Positions 11,468 through 64,000 of a stretch of DNA of 64,000 bases are shown here, in pieces. Both the position numbers and the translations under genes were made by a program. The DNA is from Diplonema papillatum. Its lineage: Eukaryota; Euglenozoa; Diplonemea; Diplonemida; Diplonemidae. The DNA is taken from positions 44,813-108,812 of the forward strand of contig JAPJBO010000771.1 in assembly GCA_030068145.1 (NCBI GenBank), given 5' to 3'. Positions within the stretch are counted from its first letter, which is position 1. The number at the start of each line of letters is the position of its first letter. Below the pieces are notes generated by a model, which saw nothing but the letters and a program-made list of their open reading frames with translations, ran no database searches and was not told where the DNA came from.

Positions 11468-13585
11468 TTAACCAAAAAGGATGACTGCAACGGCAACGTC
11501 GTCTTTTTTCGCTTGTAGGGAGCAGGCTTCCTCCACTAGTGCCTCCGCGTATGCATCAGCATCACTGAGTGATTCTTCTTCGGAATTTTCGTTTTCTGCT
11601 TCGAGCTTAAACTCCGCCCTCAGCTGGTTGACTAGCAGCCTAACGTCTTGCATAGACATGACGTCCCACAGACCGTCCGTGGCAACGACGATATAATCTA
11701 GCGTCTCCGAAACTGGCACCTCGACAATGTCAGGCTCATGGCAGATGACCTTGTCCAGAACTTGAAACCCTAGGTTCCGCGTCACCTGCAAGCGCCCCTC
11801 TACCATCGGCGTTCCCATTACCTGTCGTCAAATAAGTGGTTTTGACCAGAGGTACTTTTGGCGATTGCTTGGTATGATGTCTCATTCATGTCCATATAAG
11901 GGCACTTTCAGACCCTTACCCAAAGAACCCATACAAAACGTTTCGAGACTGGAGGTCCTATGAACATGCAATGTGAATAGCCTTTCTTCGAGCCCACTTT
12001 TCTTGCAACAAATATGAAAGTGTATTGTTTTTGGACTAGATAATAGTGAGGAGCTAGCTTTTTCTTCCCCTGCCAAAATGCATAGGGGTGGCAGAGTGAG
12101 CGGGCGTCGGCCTTCAGGCCGGTAGGCCCGGGTTCGAACCCCGGGAAACGGAGTCGGGCGGCCGAACATGCCATCACGGGCCAAACTTGCTACCAGAACC
12201 CGAACTTGCTTCGCCCGAACTTTGCTTCACCAGAACTCAGCTTCGCGCGAATTCTGCTTCGTCCGAACTCAGCTGCGCCCGAACTTTACTTCACCAGAAC
12301 TAAGGGTCGCCCAAACTTAGCTTCACCAGAACTTAGCTTCGCCCGAGCGTTGCTTCGCCCGAACTTAGCTGCGCCCGAACTTTGCTTCACCCGAACTGTG
12401 CTTCACCAGAACCAGTACTTAGCTCCCGAACTTAGCTTCGCCCGAACTTAGCATCACTCGAACTTATTATCGTCCGAACTGAGCTTCAGCAGAACTTAGC
12501 CCGAACTTAGCTTCGCCCGAACGTTGGTTCACTGGAACTTAGCATCGCCCGAACTTTGCATCGCCCGAACTTAGCTTCGCCCGAACCTTACTGTTTCCCG
12601 AACTTTAACTGCTGCCTCCAGCGCCGGCCTTTAGCCGAGCGCACGTACTTATTGCAAAGGTTTGCCTCCAAAAACAGAGCTTTGTATCCTACGAAAAGAA
12701 AAAGGGCTAGGAAAAACACACATTAATAATTTCACCGCGCCTGGATTCGACAAGTCCTGCTTCTGCTTGATTCGAGACGTGGTGGTTGACGGTGAGCATT
12801 GTGTTCTTCCCGGTCGTGTCGAAAAGGGCGGCAGCGGAGTCGCCGACGTTGGCAACGGTGACGGTGGCGTCCGAGACCAACACCGTCGTGGCGGTGGTGC
12901 CGCAATCGTTGACGCGCAAGATGTCTGCGTGGCGGCGGGCGAGGTACTCATTGGCCGCCTTGTACGCCGACACCAGCGCCTTCTTCAGAGACGGTTCCGC
13001 ACCGATGGATGCAGCTAGAAAGTGGTGCAGCATCACTCTGCAGCTCTCTGCTGCATCCGATCCGTTGTGTCCGTCGAACACCGAAGCGTAGGCGAAATTT
13101 GCAGCGGTGGTGCGGGGGCCGACCTTAGCTCTTGAGTCGCTCAAATGGAACGCGGCGACGTCCATAAAATCCGGGATGACCGCGATTCTGTCCTCGCTGC
13201 ACGTAACACCCCGACTGTACGATCCAAGATCCAAACGGTTGCTTGTGGGCGAGATGCTTGAGATGACTGAGCACGACTCTCCAACCTTAACCTTGTCTGT
13301 CGAGGTCTGTTCGCAGTACGCAGCAGCGGCTCGTGCAGTGGCGTCCCTGACGAATCGAATGCTGACGACTTCATTGCTGCGTTTTGCGGCTTTGTTTGAT
13401 GGGCTTTGGGGCGTCTCAAACACCTCTTTCACCACTGTCTCCATTACGTCTTCCACCGCGCTGTTACACCAGTGCTCACCCATGGCTAGCTGGCTCCAAA
13501 CTCTCTGACGAACTTCCGAAACATGACACAAATCAGCCAGACCAGCCTCCGCCTTGCATCTTACAAGCCGTTTCGGGAAGGTCAT
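11468..13585 (-). CDS. PP2C-family protein phosphatase, two exons
   Basis: Two exons, 13585-12722 and 11821-11468, join in phase 0 across a 900-base intron (donor GTGTGT, acceptor ACAG) to give about 405 residues. PPM/PP2C enzymes are metal-dependent Ser/Thr phosphatases with aspartates coordinating Mn/Mg. Exon 1 carries the first metal-site motif VFDGHNG (about residue 171), then CGTTATTVLV and VANVGDSAA. The junction gives GEIINVMGTPMVEGRLQVTR, matching the family's conserved G-x-L-x-V-x-R region. Exon 2 adds ATDGLWDV and KKDDVAV, the remaining metal aspartates. The first 130 residues are not recognised. The ATG at 13585 was chosen because the open frame upstream starts only at a TTG. The intron contains a tRNA-headed repeat in the opposite orientation. 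Catalytic residues look intact. Confidence 0.85.
11925..12050 (-). repeat. Dispersed repeat with TTGGCTCGAA-type core, copy in PP2C intron
   Basis: On the minus strand this reads CCAAAAACAATACACTTTCA, an AAAAGTGGG stretch, GCTATTCACATTGCATGTTC and AGGACCTCCAGTCTCGAAA. Similar copies lie at about 54165-54262 on the plus strand and, split in two by some 300 bases, at 30770-30815 and 31125-31205. It lies inside the phosphatase intron, directly beside the tRNA-headed repeat. Confidence 0.65.
12082..12652 (+). mobile_element. tRNA-headed SINE-like element with minisatellite body, copy 1
   Basis: The head carries a Pol III A box (TGGCAGAGTGAGCGG, 12089-12103) and a perfect B box (GGTTCGAACCC, 12131-12141), separated by a GC-rich arm as in type II (Ser/Leu) tRNAs. 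It is followed by about 420 bases of imperfect 16-17 bp tandem units of the type CTTCGCCCGAACTTAG alternating with CTTCACCAGAACTTAG. It ends with GCTGCCTCCAGCGCCGGCC and GAGCGCACGTACTT. The element lies in the PP2C intron, antisense to the gene. The tRNA-unrelated middle seen in other copies is largely missing here. Confidence 0.75.
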
Positions 13586-13599
13586 CACCCGCAACTCAA

Positions 13600-19411: not shown

Positions 19412-19918
19412 TGCATAGGAATGGCAGAGACCGGACGTCGGCCTGAGGCCCGGAGACCCGGGTTCGAATGCCGAAGACACTTTTTCCGGTCGAACATTAT
19501 TTTCGCAGTTTTTGAGTCACTCGGGGAATCAAGGCAGTTGGGGAAAGCGGAGTCGGGGGGGTCCTCTCCCCGCCGGGTACTAGCGCCGCAATTGCCATCA
19601 CAGGAAGAACTTACTACTACACGCGGGAACTTAGCATCGCCGGCGCTTTGCTTCACCAGTACTTAGCATCGTTCCAAATTAGCGTCACCAGAACCTAGCA
19701 TCGCCCAAACGTTTCTTCACGAGTACTCAGCATCACCAGAACTTAGCATCCGAACTTTGCTTCAGGAACATCCGGAAGTTAGCATCGTCCGAGCTTAGCA
19801 TCACTCGAGGTAAGCACCTCCAGAACTTAGCTTCGCCCATACTTTACTGTTTCCCGAACTTTATCTGCTGCCTCTAGTCTCGCTGGGCGCCGGTCTTTAC
19901 CGTGGTCACATTGATTTG
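19412..19918 (+). mobile_element. tRNA-headed SINE-like element, copy 2
   Basis: The A box (TGGCAGAGACCGG, 19422-19434) and a B box decayed by one base (GGTTCGAATG, 19461-19470) are followed by a tRNA-unrelated body starting CACTTTTTCCGGTCGA. Next come degenerate minisatellite units near 19620-19850 and a terminal CTGCCTCTAGTCTCGCTGGG segment. It is tail-to-tail with copy 3, separated by about 40 bases. Confidence 0.7.
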
Positions 19919-19958: not shown

Positions 19959-20510
19959 CGCTCGGCTAAAGGCCGGCGCGGGGCGAGACTGGAGGCAGTT
20001 GGTAAAGTTCGGGAAACAGTAAAGTTCGGGCGCAGCTAAGTTTGGGTGATGCAAATTTCTGGGGAACCGAAGTTCGGGCGAAGCAAAGTTCGGGCGCAGC
20101 TGAGTTCGGGCGAAGCAAAGTTCGGGTGAAGCACGGCTGAGTTCGGGCGAAGAAAAGTTCGGGCGAAGCTAAGTTCCGGTGAAGCAAAGCAAAGTTCGGG
20201 CGAAGCAAAGTTCGGGTTCTGGTGATGCTGAGTTCGGCGTGTGGTAGCCAGACGGTAAGTTCGGCGCCAGTACCCGGGGGGGAGACCCCCCCGGACCCCC
20301 CCCCGACTCCGTTTCCCGTGGTGACCCAAATACCGCGAGATACTGAGAAACTCCGCAAAAAACGCAAATTTCGGGCACATTGGACCCGGAAACGCAACAA
20401 ACCTTGAAAACAATCATCGACCGGAAAAGTGTCATGGGCGGGGTCCGAACCCGGGCCCACCGGCCTGACGGCCGACGCCCGGTCACTCTGCCACCCGCAT
20501 ACCTTTTGAA
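19959..20510 (-). mobile_element. tRNA-headed SINE-like element, copy 3 (most complete)
   Basis: Read on the minus strand, the A box is TGGCAGAGTGACCGG (20493-20479) and the B box GGTTCGGACCC (about 20456-20446). The body then reads CACTTTTCCGGTCGATGATT and continues through TGCCCGAAATTTGCGTTTTT, CGGAGTTTCTCAGTATCTCG and GAAACGGAGTCGGG. The minisatellite of CTTCGCCCGAACTTTG-type units (20245-19990) follows, then the terminal segment ending GAGCGCACGTATTTTTT. At about 550 bp, with a T-run at the 3-prime end, this is the best template for the family. Confidence 0.75.
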
Positions 20511-38144: not shown

Positions 38145-41100
38145 TCACAGTGCGAGAAGCTGGGACAAGGTCAGGAAGTCGCTGAAGCGCAGGCTCGTTT
38201 TGGACGACACCGTGCTAGTGCTAGTGGTGGTGGTAGTGGGCGACCGCTCGTCGAAGCTGCTCTTGGTGGCCCCGGCGGTGGTGTTGCCGGCGGGGTTGGC
38301 GCCGCTGGTGTTGCTGCTGCTGCGGCTCTCTCCGCTGCTGCCGGTGTCCGGTGTGCTGCTCTCGCTCTCGGACGCGGGGTTTGCGTCGAAGTACGGATCG
38401 CGCTGTAACTGAACCGCTGTAGGCCGCTCCGACGGGCGCATGGTGAAGCAACGCTTGAGGACTCTCCCAAAGTCACCTTGGTCTCCAATCACCGGGACCT
38501 CGCTGCTCGCCGCGAGCAGGCTCAAGCGGTAGATCGCCTGGTACGCCGTCTCGTTTTTGTCCACGTTTGGAGGCAACCCTTTGGCCATTTCATGCAGCGT
38601 GCATCCGAAGGACCAGATGTCAGACGGCGTACCATGCACACACCCAGCCAGCACCTCCGGCGCCATCCAATACGGCGTCCCGTGCAGAGCACGCGCGGGG
38701 TAACGCAACGGCGTGTATTGGTCGTCTTCGAAGCACGACTCTCCGAAATCAGCCAACTTCACAATCCCGCACGCAAACAACAGCACGTTTTCCGCTTTAA
38801 TGTCACGGTGGACGATGTGCTTCTTGTGCGTGTGGACGAGAGCGGAGAGAATCTGCTTCCCGAAGTACTGGACAGCCCACGGTGGGAGGGTGCCGAGGAT
38901 GTTGATGAGGTTGCGCAGCGTGCCCTGATCGCCGAGTTCCTCGTACAGTTCGACTTTGCCCGGTTGGAAGTGCATGCTCACGATCGAGACGATGTTCGGG
39001 TGGTGCAGCTTCTTCAAGATCGCCGCCTCCCTTTTCAACTGGGACACTGCTGCCAGTGACCCGTGGTCGAGAAACTTCCCGGCCAAGAGTCTGCCGTCGC
39101 GCGTCAACACAGCGTGCACAGTAACGCCGGGCATCGAAGATGTGCCGAGCCTCTTGCATTTGATGTACGGCACTCGGCGTGTACGTGTACGTGTCTGAGA
39201 GCGCATGCGACGGATGCTAGGGAGGGAGCCGTCTGATAAAAGGGTGTTCTGTGTCAGGGCGCGGCCAGACGCTGATGACAAAGGGAACAGAGCAGGTTGC
39301 GCCTGACGCACCGCAGTCAGCAAGCCTTGGCGGTCGACTGAAAAAGCGGACGAGGCCCCCGTCGCGTTGCAGGATCCGGGCGTGCCGCTGGAGGTGGCAC
39401 CGTTCGAGTCGGCACCCGAGCCCGAGTTGCCGTTTTCCCCACCCGACGACGACACCGCCTCGTCGGGCCATCTCAATCTCGAGCCGCTTGGCTGCTGCTG
39501 GTACCTCCCACTGTGCGCGGCTGGGATTCCTGTCGTCGTGTCGCCCGAGGACTCGTCGTGCGCGGCGCCTTCCTCATCCAACGCCGGGTTCGTCAGCGTG
39601 CAGGCTCCGGGGGAACCCCGCGGGCTCGTGCAATTGCCGGCTACGCTTGCGCCATCTTTTTTCTCGTCCACCGTGCTTTGAAGGGCTGACGAGCCCCCCG
39701 GGGAGGCACCGTCGTACCCGAGCGAATCATCGCGTGAGTAGCGGGTCTGTCCAGTGGGCTGCTCTCCGACGACTTCGGTTGGATCGCTCGCCGAGTCGTC
39801 GCCGGAGGACGCGCGGCTCTCTGCGTCGCGGTGGCCGTCGGTTTGCGGGCACATCCCCCCGAACCCGTCGGCGGTCCGGTCAAACTCCTGCGCGAGGCTT
39901 CCCTCGGCGCTTAGGTCCTCGGACGCGCCGTTTTTGAACGACGACTTCCGCTTGTGTGTGTGGTGCTTTTTGGCTTTTCCGCCCGTCTGCGTGTCGCCGT
40001 TGGACGAAGCGCCCCCCTCGCTGGTCCTCACGGTGCCCCCGCTTTGGGCGCTCTTGTGGTGGTAGCACGGTGCGGAGGAGGACGAGTACCCGTTTGCGTG
40101 GCGGGTGTAGCTTCCGGCGCCCAGGTACGGCGTGCAGGGCGACGAAGCGGCGGCGAGGGATCCGTCCGCGCGGGGCGGCAGGCCCGACGTGGCTTCTGAT
40201 AGGGCTGCGTTGTGCTCGCACGACTCCCGGTCGGCTGACGGGGCTGTCGGGGTCGCGGTGGCGACGCTGTGCGGCGGACCTGCGCCGTGGCCGACGGGTG
40301 ATACCGAGCTTTTTAGGCTGCGCCCGTAAAACGGCGTCAGGCCTTCGATGCGAGCGCCGAGCCTCGGGTCATTGCCGGCCGTCGGATTCTGCGCGGCTGG
40401 AGTCAACGCCCCAGCCGTGTCGCCCCAGCCGCCGTTCGACGTGTCCGCGGCGCGTTCATTGTCCGGCGAAGCGGGATTCTCGTCTGTCTCGGACCCCGTC
40501 TTGCTGCTTCTGCTGCCGCTGCTGCTGTCTGGGCTCGGGCTGACGATCTCGACCGGTGTTTTCTTCCGCTCGTCGCACGTTTTGACCCTCGGCTTCTGCG
40601 CCCCCGCTTCCGCTTCCTTCGCCAGGCACGAAGGCACGCACACGCCGGGTTCCCGGAGTAGATCAAAGTCGTCGCCGGGGGTGCTGGAGGCGTCGCCGAC
40701 CAACTCGGGCGCGGCCGCCTGCTCTTGCCGGCCGGCGCGCGCCCATGCGGGAAGGGGTTGGAACTGGCTCGTTTCGCCAGGCAGATTCCGGGTCGGCGGG
40801 AACAGGCCGTGGTTGACGTGGGTGCCGCGGTCTGCGGGGCTCGTCGTCGAGCTGCGGGACACCGCCGTGTCGAACCCGGGGTCCCCTGCAGACGAACCCG
40901 ACGCGTCTGCCGCTTCCGCGTGATCTGCGGTGCCCGCGCGCCGGCTTCTGGGGGGCGGACCGGACTCTGGAGCGTCGCTGGCTTTTACCCGCAGCAGGCT
41001 TCGGGCCACTGCGGGTGTGGGGTCGGCCTGCACCCTGCGCGGCATGTGGCCGGTGCTGCCTGCCTTCCCGGGGGTGGGGTGGTGGTGGTGGTGGAAGTGC

Positions 41101-41570
41101 TTGCGGTGGTGGGAGAGGCTGACGCTGTGGGCGCGCGGAGGGTCTTCTGGGTAATCTTTTTTGCGCTGTCGGAGGCCGAAGGACAGCACACCAGGCCCTC
41201 GAACCAAGGGGCTGGAAGGCGTATCGTAGATAGGCTCGCCCCAGCCGTTGGAGAACGCCACTGGTGCTGCAGATTTGGCTTGATTGGCGGTGCACGACAG
41301 GTTGACGGCCTTCAGCAGGAAAGACACGATGTTCTTCTCACGAAACCAGGCCCCCGCCGCTACGCACGCAAAAGCCACCAGCATCGTGTGCCACGCCAAA
41401 CTAAACATCGCTTCCCTCGCGTGATACGTCAACACACTCACCATCATCGCAGCCGATACCCCAACCAACAACACCACGAGCTCCTTCATCGTAAACCTGT
41501 CTTCTCTGAAAAAATACATGTCCACTTCGACAGCCGGGACCTCGTCCCACCCGAAGTCACGCGACCGCAT
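38145..41570 (-). CDS. Membrane-anchored STE/MAPKKK-like protein kinase
   Basis: A single exon of 1141 residues from the first ATG (41570); the frame is open back to a GTG at 41618. Two hydrophobic segments near residues 30-49 (ELVVLLVGVSAAMMVSVLTY) and 57-76 suggest a membrane anchor or hairpin. Residues 100-790 are Ser/Gly/Pro-rich and disordered, with His runs. The kinase domain spans about 799-1058. It has the invariant Lys in LLAGKFLD (about 829), HRDIKAENVLL (about 921), DFGES (about 940), the STE-type GTPYWMAPEVL, and SDIWSFGCTLHEMA. The glycine loop is degenerate (LGTSSMPGVTVHAVL). The catalytic residues are present, so activity is plausible. Substrates and cell location are not evident. 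A Ser-rich C-terminal tail of about 80 residues follows the domain. Confidence 0.85.
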   Translation of the reverse strand: MRSRDFGWDEVPAVEVDMYFFREDRFTMKELVVLLVGVSAAMMVSVLTYHAREAMFSLAWHTMLVAFACVAAGAWFREKNIVSFLLKAVNLSCTANQAKSAAPVAFSNGWGEPIYDTPSSPLVRGPGVLSFGLRQRKKDYPEDPPRAHSVSLSHHRKHFHHHHHPTPGKAGSTGHMPRRVQADPTPAVARSLLRVKASDAPESGPPPRSRRAGTADHAEAADASGSSAGDPGFDTAVSRSSTTSPADRGTHVNHGLFPPTRNLPGETSQFQPLPAWARAGRQEQAAAPELVGDASSTPGDDFDLLREPGVCVPSCLAKEAEAGAQKPRVKTCDERKKTPVEIVSPSPDSSSGSRSSKTGSETDENPASPDNERAADTSNGGWGDTAGALTPAAQNPTAGNDPRLGARIEGLTPFYGRSLKSSVSPVGHGAGPPHSVATATPTAPSADRESCEHNAALSEATSGLPPRADGSLAAASSPCTPYLGAGSYTRHANGYSSSSAPCYHHKSAQSGGTVRTSEGGASSNGDTQTGGKAKKHHTHKRKSSFKNGASEDLSAEGSLAQEFDRTADGFGGMCPQTDGHRDAESRASSGDDSASDPTEVVGEQPTGQTRYSRDDSLGYDGASPGGSSALQSTVDEKKDGASVAGNCTSPRGSPGACTLTNPALDEEGAAHDESSGDTTTGIPAAHSGRYQQQPSGSRLRWPDEAVSSSGGENGNSGSGADSNGATSSGTPGSCNATGASSAFSVDRQGLLTAVRQAQPALFPLSSASGRALTQNTLLSDGSLPSIRRMRSQTRTRTRRVPYIKCKRLGTSSMPGVTVHAVLTRDGRLLAGKFLDHGSLAAVSQLKREAAILKKLHHPNIVSIVSMHFQPGKVELYEELGDQGTLRNLINILGTLPPWAVQYFGKQILSALVHTHKKHIVHRDIKAENVLLFACGIVKLADFGESCFEDDQYTPLRYPARALHGTPYWMAPEVLAGCVHGTPSDIWSFGCTLHEMAKGLPPNVDKNETAYQAIYRLSLLAASSEVPVIGDQGDFGRVLKRCFTMRPSERPTAVQLQRDPYFDANPASESESSTPDTGSSGESRSSSNTSGANPAGNTTAGATKSSFDERSPTTTTTSTSTVSSKTSLRFSDFLTLSQLLAL

Positions 41571-43066
41571 CGCCTGCGTGAGCGAAGAATGCCTCCGCTC
41601 CCTCCCCAATAGATTCACTCTTCAAACCCCGAACTCAGCATGCAGTTTTTTTCTTTTCTTCCTTCTGGGAAAAATCTTAGTTTACTCAACAGTTAAAACA
41701 GCCCCTGCCTCTCATGTCTTCTGCGAACAAGATGTTGCAGGTTCTGGCGCGGTGTCTGCTGTGCCTGTGCTTTTCGGGCAGCAACGCAACACAAGAAAGC
41801 GGCGGTAGGTGATCGGCGGGCGACGTGGGTGCGACTTCTGATACTGTTCGGAGGAGAGACGTGCAATGTCCTTCCAATCCACCCTGAAACAGACGATCCG
41901 CCATTCACGTGACTTGACTATGACCAACTGTGCCCCCGAGTCTATACGACGGAGTATCCAGAACCGTTCGAGCACGCTCTGCCGGCTCTAGCTAGACTTC
42001 TGTGGCCGGCCTTGAAACAAAACAACAACTGTCTTAAAACACGAACCTTTTGTCTCGTGACCGTTTGATGACTAGACTAGACTGGTATGCGTGCCCACGT
42101 GAAGAGCTTGACAAATTCGAGGAAAATGCACGTTCGAACAAAACATGACAGGGCACCATGCATCACGGCGGATAGAAGCGAGCTTCCGGGAAAGAAACGA
42201 CGACAATTTTATTTTCCCCCGACAACAGCAAGTGTCAGACTAGTCCACCCAAGGGTGGTTCTAAACTACTAGAGTAGGTAGGATCTCAACCGTTCGGGTG
42301 TTGCATGGGTTTAAAACTTGCTAATGCTTCCCTTTCACTAATGGGGAGTCCTTTATCTTGTGTCTTGGGCGATGAACGTCGGCCCAGGCCTTCTTCTTTT
42401 TTTCGATGTGTTGGTTGTAAGTTGTCGATGAGAATATCGGAGAAAGCCTGCTACAAGAATCAAGCTTCACGTGTGCAGTGATACTTCAGAGCCACGGACC
42501 GAAAACATAATCGTCAAGACGCGGCGTACCTTAGGGCTTGGCACTTGCGCTGAACAACGAGCCCGTATAGACGGACACCCACAGCCTTGTGGACGGGGTC
42601 GTGGGGACTGTGCTACCTCAACTTTGCATGCTGCGGTAGCGGTGTCATTACACTTGCCCCGGAGCGAACCTCGTCTTTTTCTCTCTCTTTTCTTAATGTG
42701 TCGAATTCTTGTCATGGTAGCTTCTTGCTCTGTCTCTAGCGTCAGGAGAAGACCCCTTAGCTAGAGGGGAAGGCGAGAGATCCAGGCTGCTTGTGTAATG
42801 GGCTGATTGAGGCGAAGTACTGGGCCGCCGACGACGCTGGCTCTCTAAGACAAGGAAACGAGGCGAACACACAGCAACGCTACGTAACGTCGCCTGCTGC
42901 GTGAATGCGAGACTATGCCAAGGAGGAAGGGGTATGTGAGCAACAGAGACCTCGAAACCCAGTGATCCGGAATTCTAGGCTCAGAAGAAGGGTTCTTGGA
43001 CCCCCATTCGGTTTAAAAGAAATACGGACCCTGGAAAGTATATTGCGTAGACCCCATTTTCATAGG
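41571..43066. other. Intergenic, with repeat copy at 42443-42685
   Basis: The kinase promoter side and the 3-prime side of the MMPL gene meet here; both genes are on the minus strand. The only recognisable feature is the diverged partner of the 30839-31105 repeat. No coding frame is convincing. Confidence 0.45.
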
Positions 43067-46000
43067 TCAGGTCTGCGCGTTTTTGGCGGGTAGAGGGACG
43101 ACAGCAAACCTGCGTGGCCACCAGTTCGCGCCACGCGCGATGAACATCGTCGCGGGCACGAAGAGGGAGCGCACGACAAAAGTGTCCAGCAGCACCGAGA
43201 CGCACAGGATCATGCCGAATTGATTGAGGGCCAGCACGCTCGACATGAGCAGCCCGGCGAACGCGGTCGTCATGATCACGCCGGCCCCCGTGATAATGGA
43301 CCCCGTCATCGCCAAACCAGCGACGACACTCTCACTTCCTCCTCGCATCTCCCGGTACTCGTATATCCTCGTGAGCAAGAACACGTCGTAGTCCAGTCCG
43401 AGGGCAACCGTGACGCCAACTGCCATCGGGGGGACGATCCACATAAGCGAATCCCCGGTGTAATCCGACAAGTAAGGGAACATCCACGAGCAGTAATTCT
43501 CCTGGAAGCAGTAGTACGCCGCCCCGAAAGTGCACAACACGGTGTACCCGATCGTCAGAAGCATGCGCAAGGGGAGGAAGACGCTGCGGAAGGCGGCGAA
43601 AATGACGCAGACGACAATGGCGACGACGATGCCCATAACTAGGGGAATGTGATCCATCACGATGTCCCTGTAGTCTCTCGACACGGTGTTCCCGCCACTC
43701 AGCAAAATCTCGAATCCAGGGTGCCGAGCAGCCAAGGAGCCAACTTGCTCGAAGAATCGGTCCATGAACACCGATGCCTGATGCTGCGTCGGCTGGAACG
43801 GGGTTAACAACGTCGCAAAAGTAGCGACGCTGGCACCGCTGGAGACTTGTGCGGCTCGGTATTTTAGGTAGGCCTCCTCGCACACGGCCTTGTGCAAAAA
43901 CGGGAAGTCGGATCCCTTCGTGAAAAGTCCATGTTGCGGGTCGTGCAGGTATGCCCACGTGACGTTCCCGTCCCACCAAGTGTCGAGGTGAGGCGGCTTG
44001 CAGAACTGCACGTCGACCGCGGTCGTGTTGGGGAACTGGGCGATGCTGTTCAGGTAAGCTTGAGGGTTCGGGTAGTCGGCCATGTTGGTTTGCGTGTAAA
44101 TCGTGGTCGCCAGGTCGCCGAGGAGGGAGTAGCCCTCCGGGCTGAGCATCGTCTGTGCCGGGCTTGTGCTTTTGACGAGGATGAAGTAGGGCAGGAAGAA
44201 GCCTGCGGGGAACTTTTTGGCCATGGCCCACCAGGCTTGGACCGACTCTGCGTTGTGCGGCACGAATAGGAAAGGATCAAGCGACGTCTTCACGCGCGGT
44301 GCTTCGATGTACAGAGGCGCTCCTACAATGAGCACCAGGACCAGCACGCCGACGGACCTGATAGTTGCGTGGAAAGTGCCTTGTCGGTGGAGTTAATAAC
44401 TCGCGACTTTCGGAGGTGTGGGTGAAGAGAATGTGCCCGACTGTTGAGGCTGGATTCCGCCGCGCATGTTTTTGTTGGTAAAGCATCAGTCTTCTTCGAA
44501 GAAAGCAAAGAGTGCAAGAAGAGAGTGCAAGACGCTCCCCCGACCGGAGCAGAGAGCTCAGAACTACACAGACTGGCTTCGGGTTGTTCAGACTTTGCAG
44601 GAAACTGTGTCCACCTTGTTGACAGGGTGAACGCGCACACGCCTCATAAGCCCATCTGCAACCCCTGGGCCGCCTAGTTGCCAAGCAACAAAAAGAGCGA
44701 TACCACTTCTCTGTCCAGCGCGCGATCTTGTACCAGGCCTGCTTCGTATGCTGGAGCTGCGCTTCGGCTTCAACTGGCAAGTCGCAATCATCTTCCGCTT
44801 CTTCAACTGCCTCCAGCACCGTCTCATCAGCGACTGCCTCGTTGTTCACACGCGCGTACGTTGCACCATCGATGTCCTTGGTTTCTCGCCGCGTGCAGCA
44901 CCTTTTCAGGGGTGCGAGGATGGAAAAGTCCTTCTTAAAGAACGAGCTGAACGTGCCGAGCAGAGATACGGTCAGTGTCACGTTCACCAGCATGACGACG
45001 ACCACGGAAATTGCTCCTCCGATACCCTGGGCGCCGGGGGGTTGCAAAAAGGTGCTTGAAATGGTTATATGCTCAACATCACTGGTCGCCACGGACACGT
45101 AAGGCGAACAATCATCAGTGCGGAACCACAGTGTTTCCAGACACGACAGCAAACGGCACAAGCAAACCCGTATCGGGAAGAAGGCAATCAGTTAAGAACC
45201 TCTGGGCGTCTGCCCTACTTTGTGACTGCGACTCGCTAGAATGCACTGACTTGTCTTCTTTTCACAGTGGCAACCTGGTGGGTTGCCGTTCGCAGTACCA
45301 ATAATCGATGTGGAAAACACAGAGGAGCGTGGTAGTTGGTGCCTCACCTTTCGCCGGACTACTGGAAACTAAACCCATCGCCATCGGTGCTTCTGACGGA
45401 CTCAAATTACGGGGGAAAAGCATACGTGTGTAGCCAGCGGAGCGACCGGTAGTAATGCCAATCCTAGCCATGCGACTGTAATCAACGAACCAGATACCAA
45501 AATGGTATGCTTGCACGTGTTGTTGAGTATGTTGAGCAGCGTTTGGTGCACGGTTAGCTTCTCCTGGTGGATGCCCTGCCTCCACCGCAGTATGATGAAG
45601 AGGTTGTAGTCGAGGCCGACAGCCACGCAGCACGACATCATTACGGACGGCACCGTCGACAAGAACTCCATTCGGTTGTTGTCCAGGATAATGAACAGAT
45701 ACGCAAGACTGAACGAGATCGCCAGGCTGAGCATGAGGCTGATTAGCGGCAGCAGCAGAAAGTGGACGGACCTGATGTACCAAAGAACAATTCCGAACGC
45801 GATAGGCATGACAAACATCTCGGCGCGCTCCATATCGTGAATCGCCCCCTGCGCTCCGTCGACCGTCAGCATCATCACGCCTGTACCTGTAGTTCAATAG
45901 CGTACGATACGAACGCTGCAACAGTGGGTAAAACGAGCAGCACACGTTGTGCTCATCCCTTAAAACTGTCCACCCGTATCCCCCGTGGAGCTGCATCGCA

Positions 46001-50714: not shown

Positions 50715-51480
<766 letters not shown>

Positions 51481-55845: not shown

Positions 55846-56090
55846 CACAGGCCGAACTTAACATCGCCCGAGCTGAACCTCACTAGAACATAGCATCGCC
55901 CGAACTTTGATTTACCGGAACTTAGCATCACTCGAACTTAGCTTCACCAAAACGTAGCAACGCCCGAACTTAGCATCACTCGAACTTTGTTTTACCAGAA
56001 CTTAGCAACGCCCGAACTTAGCTGCTTATCGGGTGTGGGTACGTACCCGAACTTTAACTGCTGCCTCTACAGTCTTTACCGTGCGCACAT
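55820..56090 (+). mobile_element. tRNA-headed SINE-like element, minisatellite and tail only
   Basis: GGTACTGGTGCCGAACTTGC and CCATCACAGG lead into degenerate CATCGCCCGAACTTAG units (55855-56030). The terminal GAACTTTAACTGCTGCCTCT and GTGCGCACATTGA follow. Head and body are missing. Confidence 0.6.
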
Positions 56091-56094
56091 TGAT

Positions 56095-57540
56095 TTCTCG
56101 GCCGAAATCGGCCACTTTATACCTTCGCGCAACACTTACTAGGTTGGTACCTCGTACGCGGTGGAAATCTTTGTCCGATGTTTTGCATGAAGGTGGGACT
56201 CTGGCAGGAACAGAACCTGGAGGAACTAAGGCTTTCTGTTCTCTTTCTTCACCCGCGGTGATCTAGCCTCCTTCAAAATGAGCACTACAAAAAAACAACG
56301 GGTGCCACATCCACTTTCCGACGGCGTGGCACGGGCACAACTTCCGAGGCTGGACTTTACCGTGTAAGAAGATGCAGATACAGGAAATACGGGTACCGCT
56401 ACCATGGTACTTCTGACGACCTTCTGCCTTCGCAAAAGAACTGCTGTTCCTAATGAGGGGAGGGGGGAACCCGGGGGGAGGTCAAAGAGAATGATTGGGA
56501 GGGGAATTAATTTGGTTCGCAGTGTTCGATTCGGTCGTCGATCGGTAATTGTTTGAGAGAAAGGGCAATCGTTCTTCACAACATGATCGTTCTGTGCAGG
56601 TCTTGTGGACCCCGATGTAAACAAAACCTGCAATCTACGGACTGCAATCTACGCTTTTGGGACAGGCAAAGCATACCCCTTGTCAGACGATGCCGCGGAC
56701 CCACTCTGAACACGATCATGAGCCCCACAGCTACGGCAAGTACTTGGATCCCGTAATCCGACACGGCTTCTGTGTTTGGTTGCCGGGCTCTAAATGTACA
56801 GATTTTATACGCACAATTTTTTCTTGGACAAGAAGAAACACGTCTGTCCCATGTTTTTATTGGCCAGTGCTTAAAAATGCACGACATCCGACCTGCCGGC
56901 TATACAAGTTATCCATACTGTGTGCGCCCAAGTGTCCTCCGAACGAGGCTGACCACCGAAGGGACGACGACCCCGAATCGGACAACTCTTCTTTTTTGGA
57001 GAAACTGGTCCCGGTTTGAACCAAAAGGCCGGTTTGGTGACGGTGCACCACACTGTGGTTCTGCACCACAACAGGACTACTTTTCTGTACTGCAGGCGGA
57101 TTTCTTCGCACTTTTCGGCCACTAAAGAAGACGGAAGCAAAGAGAGGCAAACTCTACGAGGCGCCTTACGCTACGGTTCGCGGCGACGAGCATCTATGTC
57201 ATATTTCCTCAAGTAGGCTGATGTATGGGCTGGCTTACCGACCCGAGAAAACCGGTTTAAAGCGGGTCGGCCAGGCTGGTTTACCGCCCTCGCTACACCC
57301 CTGCTGGAAAACTCAAACCGGGTGTGTTCAAACCGAAACCGTACACCACGAGAGTAGGAGAAAGTAGAAAGGGAAACTAGAGTTTTCGTTGACCGCACTT
57401 GCACATGGCTTCGAGTGTGCTGGGTGCGGAAGAAAGTAATCGAAAGCGTTAGAACGGTATCAGATCAGCTAACTCGAAGACACTGCATGCCATGATGGGC
57501 TCAAAAACATTCGTACGTCATATCCCAAGAAAAAGAAGAA
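56095..57540. other. No supported gene
   Basis: Only short frames on both strands. No domain, RNA or repeat of the window's families was recognised. Confidence 0.4.
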
Positions 57541-57559
57541 GCTGTGTGTGAATATATGG

Positions 57560-57812
57560 CCAAGACCTGGAAAAATCGGCAAAAATGGCCCAAAATGGCC
57601 AAAAACTGGAAAAATCGGCAAAAATGGCCCAAAATGGCCAAAAACTGGAAAAATCGGCAAAAACGGCCCAAAATGGCCAAACCCACCTGGTCCAGACGAA
57701 AATATCGGGGAGTATCGGGGAGTTTCGGGGAGTTTCGGGGAGTTTCGGGGAATTTCGGGGAGTTTCGGGGAGTTTCGGGGAGTTTCGGGGAAATTCGGGG
57801 AGTTTCGGGGTA
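57560..57812 (+). repeat. Two adjacent minisatellites, 39-bp and 10-bp units
   Basis: About three copies of a 39-base unit (CTGGAAAAATCGGCAAAAAT then GGCCCAAAATGGCCAAAAA) span about 57560-57680. About ten copies of TCGGGGAGTT/TCGGGGAATT follow at 57705-57812. Between them is the CCACCTGGTCCAGACGAAAA flank shared with 19318-19372. Because 39 is a multiple of three, all frames stay open across the first part. Confidence 0.8.
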
Positions 57813-57879
57813 TTTCCTTTGTGGCGACCACTTTCCCTGCAGCCGGCCTTGGCGAAGGCGGGGAGGGGGCTACGCTATT

Positions 57880-58830
57880 ATGGCCCTACCTTGCGCAGAG
57901 CGGTCCCGTGTTTGGCTATGCCCCGAAGACGAAGATAGAGGCTGAGAAGGAAGGACAGACTGGGAGGTACAGGTTGGCACGGTTTGACACAGGTAGCGAC
58001 AGGATCCGCTGCGGCAAGGAGAGCAGGAACTGTTCCACCAGAGGTCGTGCGGGTACAGAGACAATGCTCGTGCTCGAGTCGCAGCTGGGGACGAACAGGC
58101 ACGCCTTCAATGATGAGGTCTGGGGGATGGACGTATTTTCCACGTATGGGCGGACGTGCTGGTGGGACGCCTTCGAAGACGGCACCTCCGGCAAGAAGGG
58201 GCAGAAGAGGGTAAATTTAGTGGGCGGCGGAGACCCAGTGCATGTGCCCAGGCCACCACCAAGGACGAGAGAGTGTGCACGAGACATCACAAAGCGAAAT
58301 GCGAAGAGTGCAAGCATCGGCAAGCGTCGGTAGCGCGCTGCTGCCGAGGCACACCACGCGACAGGGGACGGCCTCGCCGTGAAGTATTGCGAGAAGCACA
58401 GGATGACGCAGTGCGGGACGTGCAAGACGATCGCGGAATGCTGCACACCGCGGATGCCTGCCTGCAGCACGATATGCCGATGTGCGGAGTCGGCGGCAAA
58501 GAGACGGAAGCGCGGGCCTTCGCCCCTGGGGACGCCCGAAGCGACACCGAAGTCGAGACGCAGGCTGCGACCATCGGCCCAAAGCGCCACAAGGGAAGCG
58601 GCGGATGCCGGCGCCAACACCGCCATCGAGAACGCCGAAGACAAGGCGACGACACTAGGACGGCCGCTGCAACGAAGCGGCGGCGTAAGGACTCGCCATC
58701 ATCGAAGACAGAGACGTGCACTCCGCGGCGGGCAGAGGTCAAGATAAGGTACCAGTGACGAAGAGAGGTAGTCACGAAAGAGAGCAGATGCAGATTATCG
58801 CCACAGGCTCTTTGCATGCTATCCCTAACG
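57880..58830 (+). pseudogene. Cys-rich dispersed element, longest copy
   Basis: Related to 20770-21217 and 21950-22040. Successive frames read VCTRHHKAKCEECKHRQASV with CC (58275-58343) and YCEKHRMTQCGTCKTIAECC (58380-58440). A basic region follows (SAAKRRKRGPSPLGTPEATP), and at 58788 a start reading MQIIATGSLHAIPNDQGQL. The first Cys/His unit has the same C-x2-H-x4-C-x2-C-x9-CC spacing as the two units at 51930-52125. Frame changes suggest a decayed element, though introns cannot be excluded. The motif may bind zinc. Confidence 0.5.
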
Positions 58831-59071
58831 ACCAGGGGCAGCTACGGTCGAAGACGGCAATTCGAGCGAGGAGTAAGGTTGATAACCAATGAGAGGCACG
58901 ATGGTCATCCGAAAGCAGGGTTGCAGGATGATGCTTGGCCAAGGATACGGTTGCTATGGCGACTGGGACAGAGAGATAGCGCAAGATTGAGAGTCCTCCT
59001 TATGGGGTGGTCACACCTTCGCAGTCCCAGGGCCTCCACCCACCTGCATACGGTCGTCGACTGACCATTCC

Positions 59072-59110
59072 CGAGACGAGTTGGAATGCGGGTACCATCT
59101 TTCCGGAGAT
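59072..59110 (+). repeat. GA-run repeat family, copy 3 (GA run absent)
   Basis: GAGACGAGTTGGAATGCGGG and ACCATCTTTCCGGAGAT align with the non-simple part of the copies at 6710 and 15013. Confidence 0.45.
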
Positions 59111-59330
59111 TTCCGGTTCCTCCCGTACTCTACAACTCCCCACATAAGTGAACGTGGACTCCGAAGTGGACACTCCTTTCAACCGGGTGCACGAACTCAG
59201 AACTCCGGGATGGGTTGACCCACTGTTTCCGATGCGGCTTCCAATCATCGAAGGCTAAACTCGGGTGCAGGAGCGGTGCTCGTCGTTCGGGACCAGATGG
59301 GGGACGACTGGGTCTGCCCGGTTTACACGT

Positions 59331-59545
59331 GAATGCCTTGACGCTTCACTTGCTGAGTTCATCATGAACTGCGCTACTGCGCTTCGCGTGCGCTTCACTT
59401 GATCGTTGCATTTCTCAGAATGCTTCTGAAATCCACTCATTGCAACAAAGAAAGGGGAAGAAGAAACAGGGTTTCACGTACGATGGGGTAACCCCCTGAG
59501 GTAGCCACTGATTTTGTGAGTGAACAGGCTAGCCCAGGAAGTCAC
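59331..59545 (-). repeat. Split direct repeat, outer copy (B2)
   Basis: 215 bases, matching 59724-59938 with a single difference (CCTTGACGC against CCTTGGCGC). It forms the 3-prime terminus of the recombinase retroelement. Confidence 0.9.
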
Positions 59546-59723
59546 GGGGGACGAAGGGTGGGAACCCAGCTCCCCTGGACCTCGCGGATACCGCGGACTG
59601 ATAGGATAGCAAGCAGCGAATACCAGGATGTGGGTGGGTGGGAATTTTAGACTTTGTGTTGCTAAAACCCCAATGACCTGCTGTTTGGTCGTTACGCTGA
59701 AACATTCCCACGATGAATCGTAA

Positions 59724-59938
59724 GAATGCCTTGGCGCTTCACTTGCTGAGTTCATCATGAACTGCGCTACTGCGCTTCGCGTGCGCTTCACTTGATCGTT
59801 GCATTTCTCAGAATGCTTCTGAAATCCACTCATTGCAACAAAGAAAGGGGAAGAAGAAACAGGGTTTCACGTACGATGGGGTAACCCCCTGAGGTAGCCA
59901 CTGATTTTGTGAGTGAACAGGCTAGCCCAGGAAGTCAC
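59724..59938 (-). repeat. Split direct repeat, inner copy (B1)
   Basis: 215 bases starting exactly at the RT-RNase H stop codon, so the stop lies inside the repeat. The 178 bases between this copy and the outer copy (59546-59723) are expected to match the unseen 5-prime terminus. Confidence 0.9.
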
Positions 59939-61476
59939 ACCACCAGACCCATATCGCCAGTAAGAAAACTCCTTACCGCAAGTGCCATGTCGGCCAAATT
60001 CGCATCGGTCAAAGCCGACACCGGGACCCGCGACGGCAGGTCGGCGGGATTCCCCGCACTCTTTACCCAGCGAACAGAGACTGAGATGTTCAGCCCGCGC
60101 AGATGCGCGAGCCCCTTCACGACTGCGTCATTTAAGACTTGCGACCGCAGACATGAACCCTTACGGGCAACACCTTGTACCGTCGTGTTGTCCACGACCA
60201 CCGTCACTGCACCGCCCTCGTGCGCCGACGTCACCGACGCCACGCAACGCTCGAACGCCAGGGCCTCCAACTCGTTGATATGGAGCCTCTTTTCCTTCCG
60301 CGACCATCTCGAACCCAACACTTCGATCGCGTTCGTAGCGACGTTTACGACGACGCCGCCCCATCCATCTAGACTCGCGTCAACGAAAACGGTCAACGCT
60401 GGCACTCTAGCCTCCACCGGCATGCTACGGCTCCCGAGAACGGCTCGAATCCACATTTCAAGCAACCGCTGCACACCGCCGGAAAGACGAATCGTCTGAT
60501 CGACCGCCTTCTCCCCTCGATTGAGGGCGTTCGTCAAGCGCCGAAGGAACTTCAGAGCGAAGTAATACTCGCCCACAAAAACGCCGACGATCGCTGACGC
60601 ATGCAGCAACCGCCCTCCGAGCGTCTCCAATCCCGAAGCAGACATCGCGCCCGTGCGCACTTCTTCCACGTCCCGTGCGAGCTTCTTGGCCAGCTTCGCC
60701 GATATGCCCACCTTGTTCTTCGAGTGGTCCCAGTCCACCCCGATGAACTCGTATCTCGAGCTCGCTGTCCGGGTGTCCGCTTGCTTCCACGTCACCTTCG
60801 CCTGTGCCGCCAAATCGTCGACAATCCGAGTCGCTTCGAGAACCTCCTTGCGCGATCCGGCGTACCGAATGTTGTCGACCCAAGTGTGCACTGTGAGCGT
60901 CGACGGCACTGCGTGTTCCTGCTTGACGAAATCGGGGTGCCCGGCAACGGTCGACGTCAACGTGTGCATTAACTCGGGTGCACAGGTGTGGCCCATCGGC
61001 AACCGAGTGAGCTCCCACCATTCATCGGCGTCATCTCTGAACCGAAACGAGCCACGCGCGCTGTGCGGAATCGCAACACCGTAGAACCCGCAGCGAAAGT
61101 CACGCGTGGATCCGCATTCCGCGTGCACCGCTGACAGGTATTTGCTGACGTGCTCCAGCGGTACCGACGCCTTGTATCCGTCGGCCTCAATCGCGTTGTT
61201 CGCTTCGAACGTCCACAGAATGAACCGCTGTCGCAATGCACCCTCCTTCTCTTCGATGACCGTGAATGGCACGTTCACTGAACTTCCAGGCCCACGCGCC
61301 CTCCGAGCTATGCCGTGAGCTTCCAGCTCATGCGCATGACGTGCTTGCAACCGCGAATCCCGACGAGCCGTTGACGCAGCAGTATCCGTCGTCGCGCCAA
61401 ATGTCCGCCGCCACGTCTCATCGAACCGAATCCTCGTCACATCATTCATCCGCTCTCGTAGGAGCGGTACGTCCAT
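59935..61476 (-). CDS. Reverse transcriptase-RNase H of recombinase retroelement
   Basis: 513 residues from the ATG at 61476. The frame is open far upstream through the recombinase ORF, so translation may begin by frameshift or reinitiation near 61610. RT motifs: TRDFRCGFYGVAIP (motif A Asp), WELTRLPMGHTCAPELMHTL (motif B), and TWVDNIRYAGS in the position of the YxDD box, where the second Asp is Asn. RNase H motifs: LTVFVDASLDGWGGVV, HINELEALAFERCV, VVVDNTTVQG and GNPADLPSR, a complete acidic set. This order and the RNase H style fit DIRS/VIPER-type elements, which copy RNA into a circular DNA and integrate with a recombinase. The Asn may be a lineage feature or an inactivating change. Confidence 0.8.
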   Translation of the reverse strand: MDVPLLRERMNDVTRIRFDETWRRTFGATTDTAASTARRDSRLQARHAHELEAHGIARRARGPGSSVNVPFTVIEEKEGALRQRFILWTFEANNAIEADGYKASVPLEHVSKYLSAVHAECGSTRDFRCGFYGVAIPHSARGSFRFRDDADEWWELTRLPMGHTCAPELMHTLTSTVAGHPDFVKQEHAVPSTLTVHTWVDNIRYAGSRKEVLEATRIVDDLAAQAKVTWKQADTRTASSRYEFIGVDWDHSKNKVGISAKLAKKLARDVEEVRTGAMSASGLETLGGRLLHASAIVGVFVGEYYFALKFLRRLTNALNRGEKAVDQTIRLSGGVQRLLEMWIRAVLGSRSMPVEARVPALTVFVDASLDGWGGVVVNVATNAIEVLGSRWSRKEKRLHINELEALAFERCVASVTSAHEGGAVTVVVDNTTVQGVARKGSCLRSQVLNDAVVKGLAHLRGLNISVSVRWVKSAGNPADLPSRVPVSALTDANLADMALAVRSFLTGDMGLVV

Positions 61477-61610
61477 CGGTGGCACACTATCAACATGCAG
61501 CGGCGCGGCCTTCTCCTCGTCCGTCTTGGGCAAGCGCGTCTTTTTCCCCCGCTTGAACAGCGAGTGCTGCTGCCGGACAAACCGACCCAGGTCCAACGGG
61601 TCCCTGTTCC

Positions 61611-62705
61611 TCACAGAAACACAGTGACCTCCGCCGTTCTTAGCACGCGCGCCAGCGCCACCACGTTGTTTGCGTACCGCACCGTCATCTGCGCCACGGT
61701 CGGGTCCACCTCGTTCTTGTGCTTGGCCACCCTGGATATCAGGTGCTCTGGGAACGGAGCTCCTAGGGACTTGGCCTCCAGCAGGTGGTCGACTGCCCCC
61801 CTCTTGATGCTGTGTGCCGAGTATCGGCACATCCGAAGCTCGCCCGCCCACATTCTCGCGAGCTGCGCTGTCGACACCGACGTCAATTGGCGGAAGTCCC
61901 CCGCGCCTCGTACGAGCATCGCGATCACGTTCGTCAACGGCCCGCAGATAACCACCAACTTGCTCACACAAAACGGGTTCCTGGTACGACCCTTCGGCCG
62001 CACTCCCCAGTCGACTATGACTTCGTCGTCCGTCACCAGAACAAAGTCTCTCCGCGTCAGCATGCACACATCGGCCCAACGCGACGCCGTCTTCCACGCG
62101 ACGAGTGTCGCCAAACGAACGTGCGACACCTGGTCCATCGCCCATGAAAGGAGCGTGTCGCGCGGAATCGACTCCGCCTGCGACAGCGGGATAGCTGCAC
62201 CAGCACCACGGAGAGCAGACGCCAACGTTTTCAACGGCTGGCTGTTGACCCCCAAATGGCCAAAAACCGCCGCCAGCAACCGGGAGTACGCCAGCATACC
62301 CTGGGGTTCCACCGAAGTAGCCATCACGAACAGGACAGCCGTATCCGGGTTGAGGCCCATACCTTGCGCACTGGTCCACGCCTGGAATCGTCTCCACAAA
62401 TTGCGTCGATCGTCCACCGTCGATTCCGCCCAAGCACGACCCACCACCTGGTGCAATCGGTCGCGTGCTTCCGACACCGTCACGTCTCTCTCTCTGTGCC
62501 TCGAAGCAAGAGTCCGCGTGACCGCCACGCCCGTCTTCGATGCCACTAAATCGAGAACCGCTTGGCCGACGATCGACGCCGCGCGCGACTGCTGTGTGAG
62601 AAGCCCTGCCTCCCCGGCTGAGAATCCGCGAAATGGCGAAGAGTTGGTTCTCGCGCTCCTTGGTGAAGGGGCGAGAGCCTGAATTGATTGTGCGCCGGGG
62701 ATCAC
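61611..62705 (-). CDS. Tyrosine recombinase of retroelement
   Basis: 364 residues, with a GTG as first possible start, so the N-terminus probably comes from frameshifting or an upstream start. The catalytic set is visible: Arg in WKTASRWADV (about 209), YSAHSIKRGAVDHLL (His about 298, Lys/Arg 301-302), His in SRVAKHKNE (about 329) and the nucleophile Tyr in MTVRYANNV (about 344). The N-terminal region resembles SAM-like core-binding domains (YSRLLAAVFGHLGV). The enzyme would integrate a circular DNA intermediate without target duplication. It sits between GAG and RT, unlike DIRS and Ngaro elements, where the recombinase is last. Stop at 61611 lies directly before the RT region in another frame. 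Confidence 0.8.
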   Translation of the reverse strand: MIPGAQSIQALAPSPRSARTNSSPFRGFSAGEAGLLTQQSRAASIVGQAVLDLVASKTGVAVTRTLASRHRERDVTVSEARDRLHQVVGRAWAESTVDDRRNLWRRFQAWTSAQGMGLNPDTAVLFVMATSVEPQGMLAYSRLLAAVFGHLGVNSQPLKTLASALRGAGAAIPLSQAESIPRDTLLSWAMDQVSHVRLATLVAWKTASRWADVCMLTRRDFVLVTDDEVIVDWGVRPKGRTRNPFCVSKLVVICGPLTNVIAMLVRGAGDFRQLTSVSTAQLARMWAGELRMCRYSAHSIKRGAVDHLLEAKSLGAPFPEHLISRVAKHKNEVDPTVAQMTVRYANNVVALARVLRTAEVTVFL

Positions 62706-62939
62706 GCTCCTGACGGCTGCTAGGACTGACTCGGTCTCCTCCTCGAGAGAGACCCTTCGAAACCCGGGAAGAGGGAGGATGCCGGACGCGAGGATCGACC
62801 GACGGAGAACTGGCTGCGCGTCCGGAAACGCGCGATGGGAAGATGTCGCGGTTGGGGTTTGAAAATTGATCGGGGAGGGAATGGGATGGATAACTGGCCC
62901 CGCGGGTAACGCCCCGTCTGTCTGCCGGAAGGACGCCAG

Positions 62940-63944
62940 TCACTTTCCCCCGGGCATACCGTTTCCCCGTGCATAAGACCAGTTCTTGCCACCCTTTCCA
63001 CCCTTGTACCTCCTCGGGGCGGCGTCCCACTTTGCCGTGCGGCTCCGCTCCTTCTCCATGTCACCCTTGACCTTCGCCATCGTCCGATCAAGAACGTCCT
63101 CGGCCGCGGTCTCCATCTCCCGCAGCATCCTGCCGCGGGGCACCTTCTCGACGCACCACCCGTGGTGCAGGCGGACTTCCAACAAAAGCTCGTTCCCGAG
63201 CCGCACCAACTCCTCGTTCGCCGTCCAACCCGCTGAACCGGCGGCTACGCCCAAGATCCACGTCCTGAGCCTCTCGAAGGCACCTTTCAGCGCTGCCCCT
63301 CCCGGCGCTGAGACGTTGCCCGCCACGTACTCTGACTGCAAGTCACGGACCAGGCCGTGCGGATCGGCCGCCGCAATCTCCGACCATTCGCGAACGTCTT
63401 TGAGGCTGTACCGAGCCGGGTACCCGACCTGCGGCCCCGGTCCGTCAACCCCCGCCGGAATCCCAAGCTGGGCCTGCAGCGTCGCGATCGCCACCTTCTG
63501 CTGTTCCACGACGCTACACACCTGCTGTAGCATGGCAGAGAGACTGGCTACCCGCGGGTCCTCAGCCTGCGGCTGCGGCTGCGACGTCGATTGCTGTTCC
63601 TGTGGGCGCGGCTGCTGCTGCTGCGACGACCCTTCCAGCTGCGGCGGTGGAACGCCCTTCGCCGCCGCTCCAAGCACCTTCTCCCGAGCAAGTTGCAGGC
63701 GCTTCTCGTCTTCATCTTCGACCATCATCAAAATGGCAAGACCTCTCTGCAGGTCCAAGCCGACAACTTCGGCCGCAGTCGCCCCCAGCGACTCCCTCAA
63801 CACTGCAATCACCGACTCTGTCACGCCGACGTCGCAAGACCCGAAGATCGAGGCGCAGAACGCCTCCATCTGGCGCACCCGGAAGGTGCGCTTCGTTGGT
63901 GCCTCGTCCAAGAAACACCTCGACCACGCCTCTTTCAGGGCCAT
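62940..63944 (-). CDS. GAG-like protein of recombinase retroelement
   Basis: 334 residues from an ATG. A helical N-terminal half (QMEAFCASIFGSCDVGVTES; RGLAILMMVEDEDEKRLQLA) is followed by a Gln/Pro-rich linker (QQQQPRPQEQQSTSQPQPQ), then a coiled-coil-like stretch (LSAMLQQVCSVVEQQKVAIA). Next comes a helical domain, and the tail is basic and Gly-rich (RRYKGGKGGKNWSYARGNGM). No zinc knuckle is present. Position upstream of the recombinase and the basic tail suggest a nucleocapsid-like role. No sequence family is recognised, so the call rests on context. Confidence 0.6.
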   Translation of the reverse strand: MALKEAWSRCFLDEAPTKRTFRVRQMEAFCASIFGSCDVGVTESVIAVLRESLGATAAEVVGLDLQRGLAILMMVEDEDEKRLQLAREKVLGAAAKGVPPPQLEGSSQQQQPRPQEQQSTSQPQPQAEDPRVASLSAMLQQVCSVVEQQKVAIATLQAQLGIPAGVDGPGPQVGYPARYSLKDVREWSEIAAADPHGLVRDLQSEYVAGNVSAPGGAALKGAFERLRTWILGVAAGSAGWTANEELVRLGNELLLEVRLHHGWCVEKVPRGRMLREMETAAEDVLDRTMAKVKGDMEKERSRTAKWDAAPRRYKGGKGGKNWSYARGNGMPGGK

Positions 63945-64000
63945 CGGAAACCGATACTGCCACCTTTCAACATTCGGCAGTGGGGAACGGCTTTGTGCCA

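Follow-up and report, generated by a model that had tools for sequence, protein, structure and literature searches.

The minus strand at the right end of a 64,000-nucleotide stretch of the Diplonema papillatum genome (contig JAPJBO010000771.1, here C771; the whole stretch is referred to as the window) encodes, from position 64000 to position 59331, a tyrosine-recombinase (YR) retroelement in which a GAG-like open reading frame (ORF) is followed by the YR, by a reverse transcriptase (RT)/RNase H region, and then by 215-bp repeats. The question raised by this locus is to which group of YR retroelements it belongs, and how it is expressed, copied, and inserted in its host, a free-living marine flagellate that taxonomy places in the class Diplonemea of the Euglenozoa. 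The structure of the element is A1 - GAG - YR - RT/RNase H - B1 - A2 - spacer - B2. It is probably best explained as a recently active VIPER-like YR retrotransposon of D. papillatum that follows the cycle proposed below. For simplicity, C numbers denote contigs, L numbers denote loci of the genome, and the three families are those represented by the window, L074, and L075.

An earlier note on the window had proposed the order GAG, YR, RT/RNase H and had interpreted the near-identical 215-bp repeats as a B1-A2-B2 terminus. Both proposals were borne out, the order by the ORFs together with a Pfam match for RNase H, a profile comparison for YR, and motifs for RT. The GAG-like ORF (62940-64000, minus strand, like all features of the element) is open from the window end for 352 residues to a TGA stop at 62942-62940, and its start codon would begin one base past 64000, where the sister copies L067, L069, and L096 continue as ATGGCACAAAGCC. 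The YR ORF (61611-62939; 442 codons plus stop) is in phase with GAG, and the RT/RNase H region (59935-61605) comprises 556 residues counted from 61605. Repeat B1 (59724-59938; 215 bp) overlaps the RT stop codon and ends GGCATTC. It is followed by the 82-bp repeat A2 (59642-59723; TTACGATT...GTCTAAAATTC), which contains the acceptor CAGCAG|GTCATTGGGG and is identical to the A1 of sister copies, by a 96-bp spacer (59546-59641), and by the 215-bp repeat B2 (59331-59545), the 3' end of the element, with the right flank ACGTGTAAACC. The 178 bp separating the two 215-bp repeats therefore consist of A2 and the spacer. B1 and B2 are 99.5% identical by BLAST, a single mismatch (a repeat finder gives 100%). 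They are not a chance pair, because the remaining direct repeats in 56000-64000 are only two low-complexity arrays and short pairs of 70 to 78% identity.

A1 is missing from the window because the contig stops there: base 108,812, the last of C771, is window position 64000. In sister copies that share this gag, the 82-bp A1 lies upstream of GAG, where the earlier note had expected a copy. For example, the copies on C588, C107, C251, and C194, whose gag is 99 to 100% identical to that of the window over 300 bp, have A1, then AAGTTACT and ATGGCACAAAGCC. The C947 copy (L013; gag 81% identical to that of the window) has a complete 5' end that starts with the same 82 bp as A2, and it lacks A2 and B2. 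Three sequence families share this arrangement, which rules out a chance composite of unrelated parts.

The 78 best of 3,101 candidate RT matches were scored, and counts from them are lower bounds. At least 18, the window copy included, are identical across all 556 residues; the others comprise 4 partial matches (99 to 100%), 41 matches at 77 to 80%, and 15 at 65 to 66%. The identical copies mean recent movement, to which no date is attached. C771 and C28 both terminate inside a copy of the element, which is thus a place where the assembly breaks. The gag homologue at L024 (C19:1-1570) is more distant, 33 to 36% identical (33 to 34% to the GAG of the window). It has an intact ORF and a spliced leader at its 5' end, and it appears from its sequence to be a further family of the same kind.

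RNase H matches Pfam PF17917 in all three families (best E 1.1e-6). The window match, with PF17917 and PF17919 at residues 404 to 482 (60160-60396), reaches E 5.2e-5 against PF17917, just under the curated cut-off. Pfam and PDB searches gave no YR match, and comparisons with single sequences gave no support (Cre, 0.15%; lambda Int, 1.3%). In contrast, a YR profile built from the three families aligned with a profile of eight Cre-like recombinases over 258 columns with an hhalign probability of 80.3% (E 1.4e-5), against 0.4% for the RT profile used as a control. In the alignment with Cre, R287, H376, H407, and Y422 are in place, K379 stands at the place of Cre R292, and R380 is beside it. The RT assignment is motif based: the three-family alignment contains RDFRCGFYG (D169), LPMGHTCAPELM, WVDN (D244 N245), and FIGVDW, and the candidate residues of the RNase H region are D409, E445/E447, D472, and D522. 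The RT frame ends 34 residues past D522, and Pfam detected no methyltransferase after RNase H. A CH-box was absent from the two GAGs checked, and no relatives were found in bacterial, archaeal, and viral collections.

How could three proteins be made from these frames? YR is open in the GAG phase directly from the codon after the GAG stop, and its first Met is found only at residue 194 in the window (171 in L074; 64 in L075), which in the window falls inside the core-binding region. The RT frame, −1 relative to GAG and YR, is free of stops from inside GAG, across the whole of YR, to the RT stop (59935-63060). Over the YR ORF it has no stops in the window, L074, or L075 (442, 433, and 413 codons), where synonymous shuffles gave means of 10.6, 10.3, and 9.5 stops, and zero stops occurred in none of 500 shuffles per family. 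The +1 frame has 17 to 19 stops over the same region, as expected. Likewise, the 374 nt past the GAG stop of L024 contain no stops in the YR frame, none in the −1 frame, and seven in the third.

Two short signals accompany these frames. The heptamer G_GGA_AAC (62961-62967 in the window), at which a −1 shift leads into the RT frame, lies in the GAG phase 6 to 7 codons ahead of the stop in all five gag-end variants, one of which is only 33 to 36% identical in GAG. The gags of the window and L054 contain no other in-frame XXXYYYZ heptamer (Y = A or T; Z not G), and L024 has two more. Given the residues, the chance of this codon choice is 0.06 to 0.08 per gag in the three gags tested. The GAG stop (62940-62942), in the context AAG TGA CTG GC, is followed by CTG GC in 5/5 variants, with AAG as the preceding codon in four and AAA in L024. 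Taken together, the heptamer, the stop context, and the stop-free RT frame point to predicted −1 frameshifting for GAG-RT and predicted UGA readthrough for GAG-YR. A single continuous GAG-YR-RT polyprotein is ruled out, as the stop and the frame change are conserved.

It is unlikely that the element, although VIPER-like, owes its open frame under YR and its heptamer to composition, with RT and YR translated from separate or reinitiated starts. The −1 frame of the RT region is itself poor in stops (15 versus a shuffle mean of 21.3, P 0.044), and thus some stop avoidance is general; this explanation would nevertheless have to account for zero stops over YR in three families, where about 10 are expected in each, for the in-phase heptamer in every variant and the lack of any other in two of the three gags scanned, and for a window YR frame whose first Met lies so far downstream. 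Two further results favor it and count against recoding. RNA folds past the heptamer were no better than those of shuffles (z 1.56, −0.68, and −0.31), which leaves a conserved RNA structure as a recoding stimulator unsupported. Codon periodicity is weak in the 99 codons compared after the GAG stop (differences of 33, 37, and 46), and therefore protein selection on these YR residues is weak. By eye, three variants also show a stem GUGACUGGC/GCCAGU across the stop, for which no claim is made.

Insertion was evaluated by comparing the flanks of copies with empty sites among the genome loci that were read. For 13 of 27 flank pairs, an empty site matched exactly over 20 nt at zero duplication; these pairs represent 10 different joins, partly in other loci (L081 in L034, L090 in L048) and partly in tandem repeats around the copy; for the other 14 pairs there was no sequence to compare. 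Insertions are precise and without target duplication wherever the comparison was possible. The flanks also have a recurrent composition. Among 46 unique left flanks, T is at −2 in 40, a purine is at −5 in 40, and G is at −1 in only 1. Of 31 right flanks, 29 have a pyrimidine at +1. Copies at L047, L049, L051, L052, L071, and L112 lie within tandem satellites of several kinds, some in identical phase. The copy on C20 interrupts its satellite at the phase AAAATG|CGGTGG, and its right flank is identical in C2 and C330. The recombinase may prefer certain satellite units.

The left ends of two copies may connect the element with the trans-splicing of its host. The D. papillatum genome paper describes unidirectional, likely co-transcribed gene clusters, a spliced leader (SL) carried by nearly all mRNAs, 110 SL RNA genes, and an SL RNA - 5S - U2 unit (PMC10161547). 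The earlier note's statement that the host lacks polycistrons is at odds with these clusters. The 36-nt leader, read in L010, has 530 exact genomic matches (reversed control, 0), and U2 and 5S genes accompany it, as in the SL RNA - 5S - U2 unit, in one of five leader loci scanned. This leader rules out a kinetoplastid host or contaminant. The C20 copy (L010) begins on its left with CCAACGATTT...TTTATTG, fused to GTCATTGGGG exactly past the CAGCAG of A1, and the C330 copy (L051) has the same fusion. Both copies keep B1-A2-spacer-B2 and end GGCATTC before the same satellite phase. They are the only leader-ended A cores among the 100 listed in the survey described below; a second leader type shows such a fusion at 1 of 74 places, with the leader shortened (L055).

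It is possible, though on balance doubtful, that these are ordinary processed retrocopies made by a long interspersed nuclear element (LINE)-type element rather than by the element's own machinery. Leader-bearing insertions of many other sequences are indeed suggested by 530 exact leader matches in a genome for which 110 SL RNA genes are described (PMC10161547). However, neither leader copy has poly(A), both stop precisely where B ends, and an exact empty site with zero duplication exists for one of them. Across 30 leader loci (L014 to L043) the leader precedes many different sequences, several of them repeatedly, e.g., GCTGCTCACGCGGCCGGTAAAG, and leader-tagged retrocopies of other elements look common in the genome.

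Trans-splicing within A1 would raise the further problem of how A1 persists. If nearly all mRNAs bear the leader, as stated in the genome paper (PMC10161547), the intact A1 in 13 of the 15 five-prime ends read means that either A1 is restored or unspliced RNA serves as the template. We tentatively favor restoration, most simply from A2, over an unspliced template.

In a survey of A modules, a 29-nt A-core pattern was found at 105 places in the genome, of which 100 were listed and 69 read. These 69 comprise 19 solo A-spacer units, 13 B1|A2-spacer junctions, 13 A1-gag starts, 2 leader-A1-gag starts, 12 A units joined to truncated element sequence, 8 without an exact AAAATT, and 2 that were not placed. 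The 12 truncated joins occur at AAAATT, and their 11 BLAST start points range from body position 718 to 4277, with 4103 and 4104 perhaps one point with filler bases. When C136, with AAAGTT, and C263 are added to these 12 truncated joins, A ends at the same point in 13 of the 14, C263 being the exception. The spacer units C363 and C557 have an altered A end. Locus L066 (C13:147968-148049 and on) is a solo A-spacer-B unit with both ends and unrelated flanks, like SIRE, the short form of VIPER.

One alternative is that the A-truncated-B copies are internal deletions of older elements, kept as movement needs both ends, and would then say nothing about complementary DNA (cDNA) synthesis. We regard this as improbable. 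It gains from the clustering of several joins at about 4103 to 4108 of the body, some with short filler bases, but the left break falls at the same A base in 13 of 14 units while the right break is spread from 718 to 4277; if survival of A were the only demand, left breaks should scatter anywhere downstream of A. An A-anchored survey shows copies with left breaks within GAG only as A1-gag starts.

In the proposed cycle, trans-splicing at the AG inside A1 would swap the first 46 nt of A1 for the spliced leader, as the leader-ended copies suggest. One mRNA would then yield GAG, GAG-RT/RNase H through a −1 shift at G_GGA_AAC, and GAG-YR through UGA-CUG readthrough, three products that conservation and the open frame lead us to infer. 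The RNA used for reverse transcription would have its 3' end where A2 ends (AAAATT). The cDNA, full or 5'-truncated, would join that A end, as suggested by fixed A ends next to variable truncation points, to give a molecule with an intact B|A junction, and the unspliced A2 would in this way resupply the part of A1 lost to trans-splicing. The YR would recombine the B|A junction with a target that has T at −2 and mostly a purine at −5 relative to the cut. The outcome, A on the left and B on the right without target duplication, is what the empty sites show, and the YR is the presumed agent. Short copies made of A, spacer, and B, comparable to SIRE of Trypanosoma cruzi, may be mobilized through the same ends. 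A broader proposal, which we put forward tentatively and hold to be less likely true than false, is that this is a diplonemid VIPER-like lineage built around trans-splicing, with the downstream A2, which trans-splicing does not reach, as a master copy that restores the 46 nt of A1 missing from each spliced RNA, two recoding events eight codons apart on one mRNA, and a YR nested in its entirety in the RT frame. If true, it would supply a reason for split direct repeats in trans-splicing hosts.

Beyond the fold and periodicity results, several findings weigh against this cycle and the identification on which it builds. Intact A1 also fits copied RNA that was simply not trans-spliced. In the YR, Lys occupies the place of the second catalytic Arg (HS[IV]KRG) in all three families. 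Neither a Pfam RT domain nor a PDB match was found for the RT, and in 3/3 families WVDN stands in place of the usual YxDD box, with Asn replacing the second Asp. Among the 13 exact joins, those of L116 and the C20 copy could also be read as duplications, of 5 bp and 3 bp, respectively, and the 14 flank pairs without an empty site include that of the second spliced-leader copy. Finally, C263 joins upstream of AAAATT, C136 has AAAGTT, and six further A cores run into sequence that could not be placed.

Anatomy is the sole basis on which the element would be placed among VIPER-like elements: the ORF order on one strand, the split repeats, the lack of target duplication, and a SIRE-like short form are all present. 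VIPER of Trypanosoma cruzi and other kinetoplastids is described with the same GAG, YR, RT/RNase H order, with a 5'-terminal A1 and a 3'-terminal B1-A2-B2, and with a B repeat of 219 bp in T. cruzi versus 215 bp in Diplonema (PMC6681497). Its short SIRE form has A2 and B2 plus an internal stretch of its own (PMC6681497), a form that the Diplonema short units resemble, and VIPER is likewise described as inserting without target duplication (PMC12278014). The differences are the diplonemid host, an A of 82 bp versus 173 bp, a spacer of 96 bp versus about 30 bp in SIRE (PMC6681497), and an RT frame that is open beneath the entire YR ORF. The missing CH-box is not a defining difference, as several VIPERs in the same account also lack it (PMC6681497). 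The VIPER RNase H was reported there to be close to that of hepadnaviruses (PMC6681497).

The element may equally well be TATE-like, or form a lineage of its own next to VIPER and TATE, as be a VIPER in the narrow sense. VIPER and TATE share the ORF order and the split direct repeats (PMC6681497), and anatomy cannot separate them. In addition, TATE is named in the D. papillatum genome paper, which mentions TATE-like ORFs under DNA transposons (PMC10161547), and the spacer and the nested frame are peculiar to the Diplonema element. The earlier note's suggestion of a new VIPER-type lineage is partly supported. Among the titles listed in a literature search limited to open-licence papers, none names such an element in a diplonemid.

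DIRS1-like elements also have YR, RT, and RNase H and lack target duplications, and in half of 28 elements the YR and pol ORFs overlap over a long stretch, but they are described with inverted terminal repeats, internal complementary regions, and a methyltransferase (PMC3266345), in contrast to the direct repeats and the absence of a methyltransferase region here. No terminal inverted repeats of the DIRS1 type were found; the only inverted repeats were 20 to 30 nt long, 70 to 81% identical, and away from the ends. Ngaro and PAT elements have the YR after RT/RNase H or in inverted orientation to it, whereas the Diplonema element has it before. They do share the split direct repeats A1 - B1-A2-B2 (PMC6681497). 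Spliced-leader-tagged retrogenes of dinoflagellates resemble the leader-ended copies in carrying a leader relict in the genome, but those described are copies of host genes, whereas the Diplonema copies are of a YR retroelement with precise ends (PMC6050394, PMC12014239).

The kind of element is thus an ordinary one, a YR retrotransposon of the VIPER/TATE type; what is new are the details in this host, namely the nested frames with conserved recoding signals, the fixed A joins, and the spliced-leader ends. Diplonemids and kinetoplastids are sister classes. The earlier note was right that the host is not a kinetoplastid, but a diplonemid belongs to the same phylum, and the host range is extended by a single sister class rather than to a remote host. 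The kinetoplastids from which VIPER and TATE were described are trypanosomatids and Bodo saltans. Intact, recently copied relatives in a diplonemid, here a species with reported gene replacement, would push the group back toward the ancestor of both classes. Near-identical copies with leader ends, truncations, solo A-B units, and empty sites constitute a record of the copying and insertion of a YR retroelement, a cycle for which models are otherwise the main source of knowledge.

Elsewhere in the window, host-type ORFs on the minus strand at 38145-41618, 43067-44347, and 12707-13594 match a protein kinase, the MMPL family, and a PP2C phosphatase, respectively, in Pfam. At 50716-51077 the dinucleotide AC is repeated 181 times without interruption. 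A 16-bp unit like GAACTTAGCATCACC forms arrays, in both orientations and scattered along the window, at 12199-12586, 19627-19750, 20004-20216, and 55852-56022.

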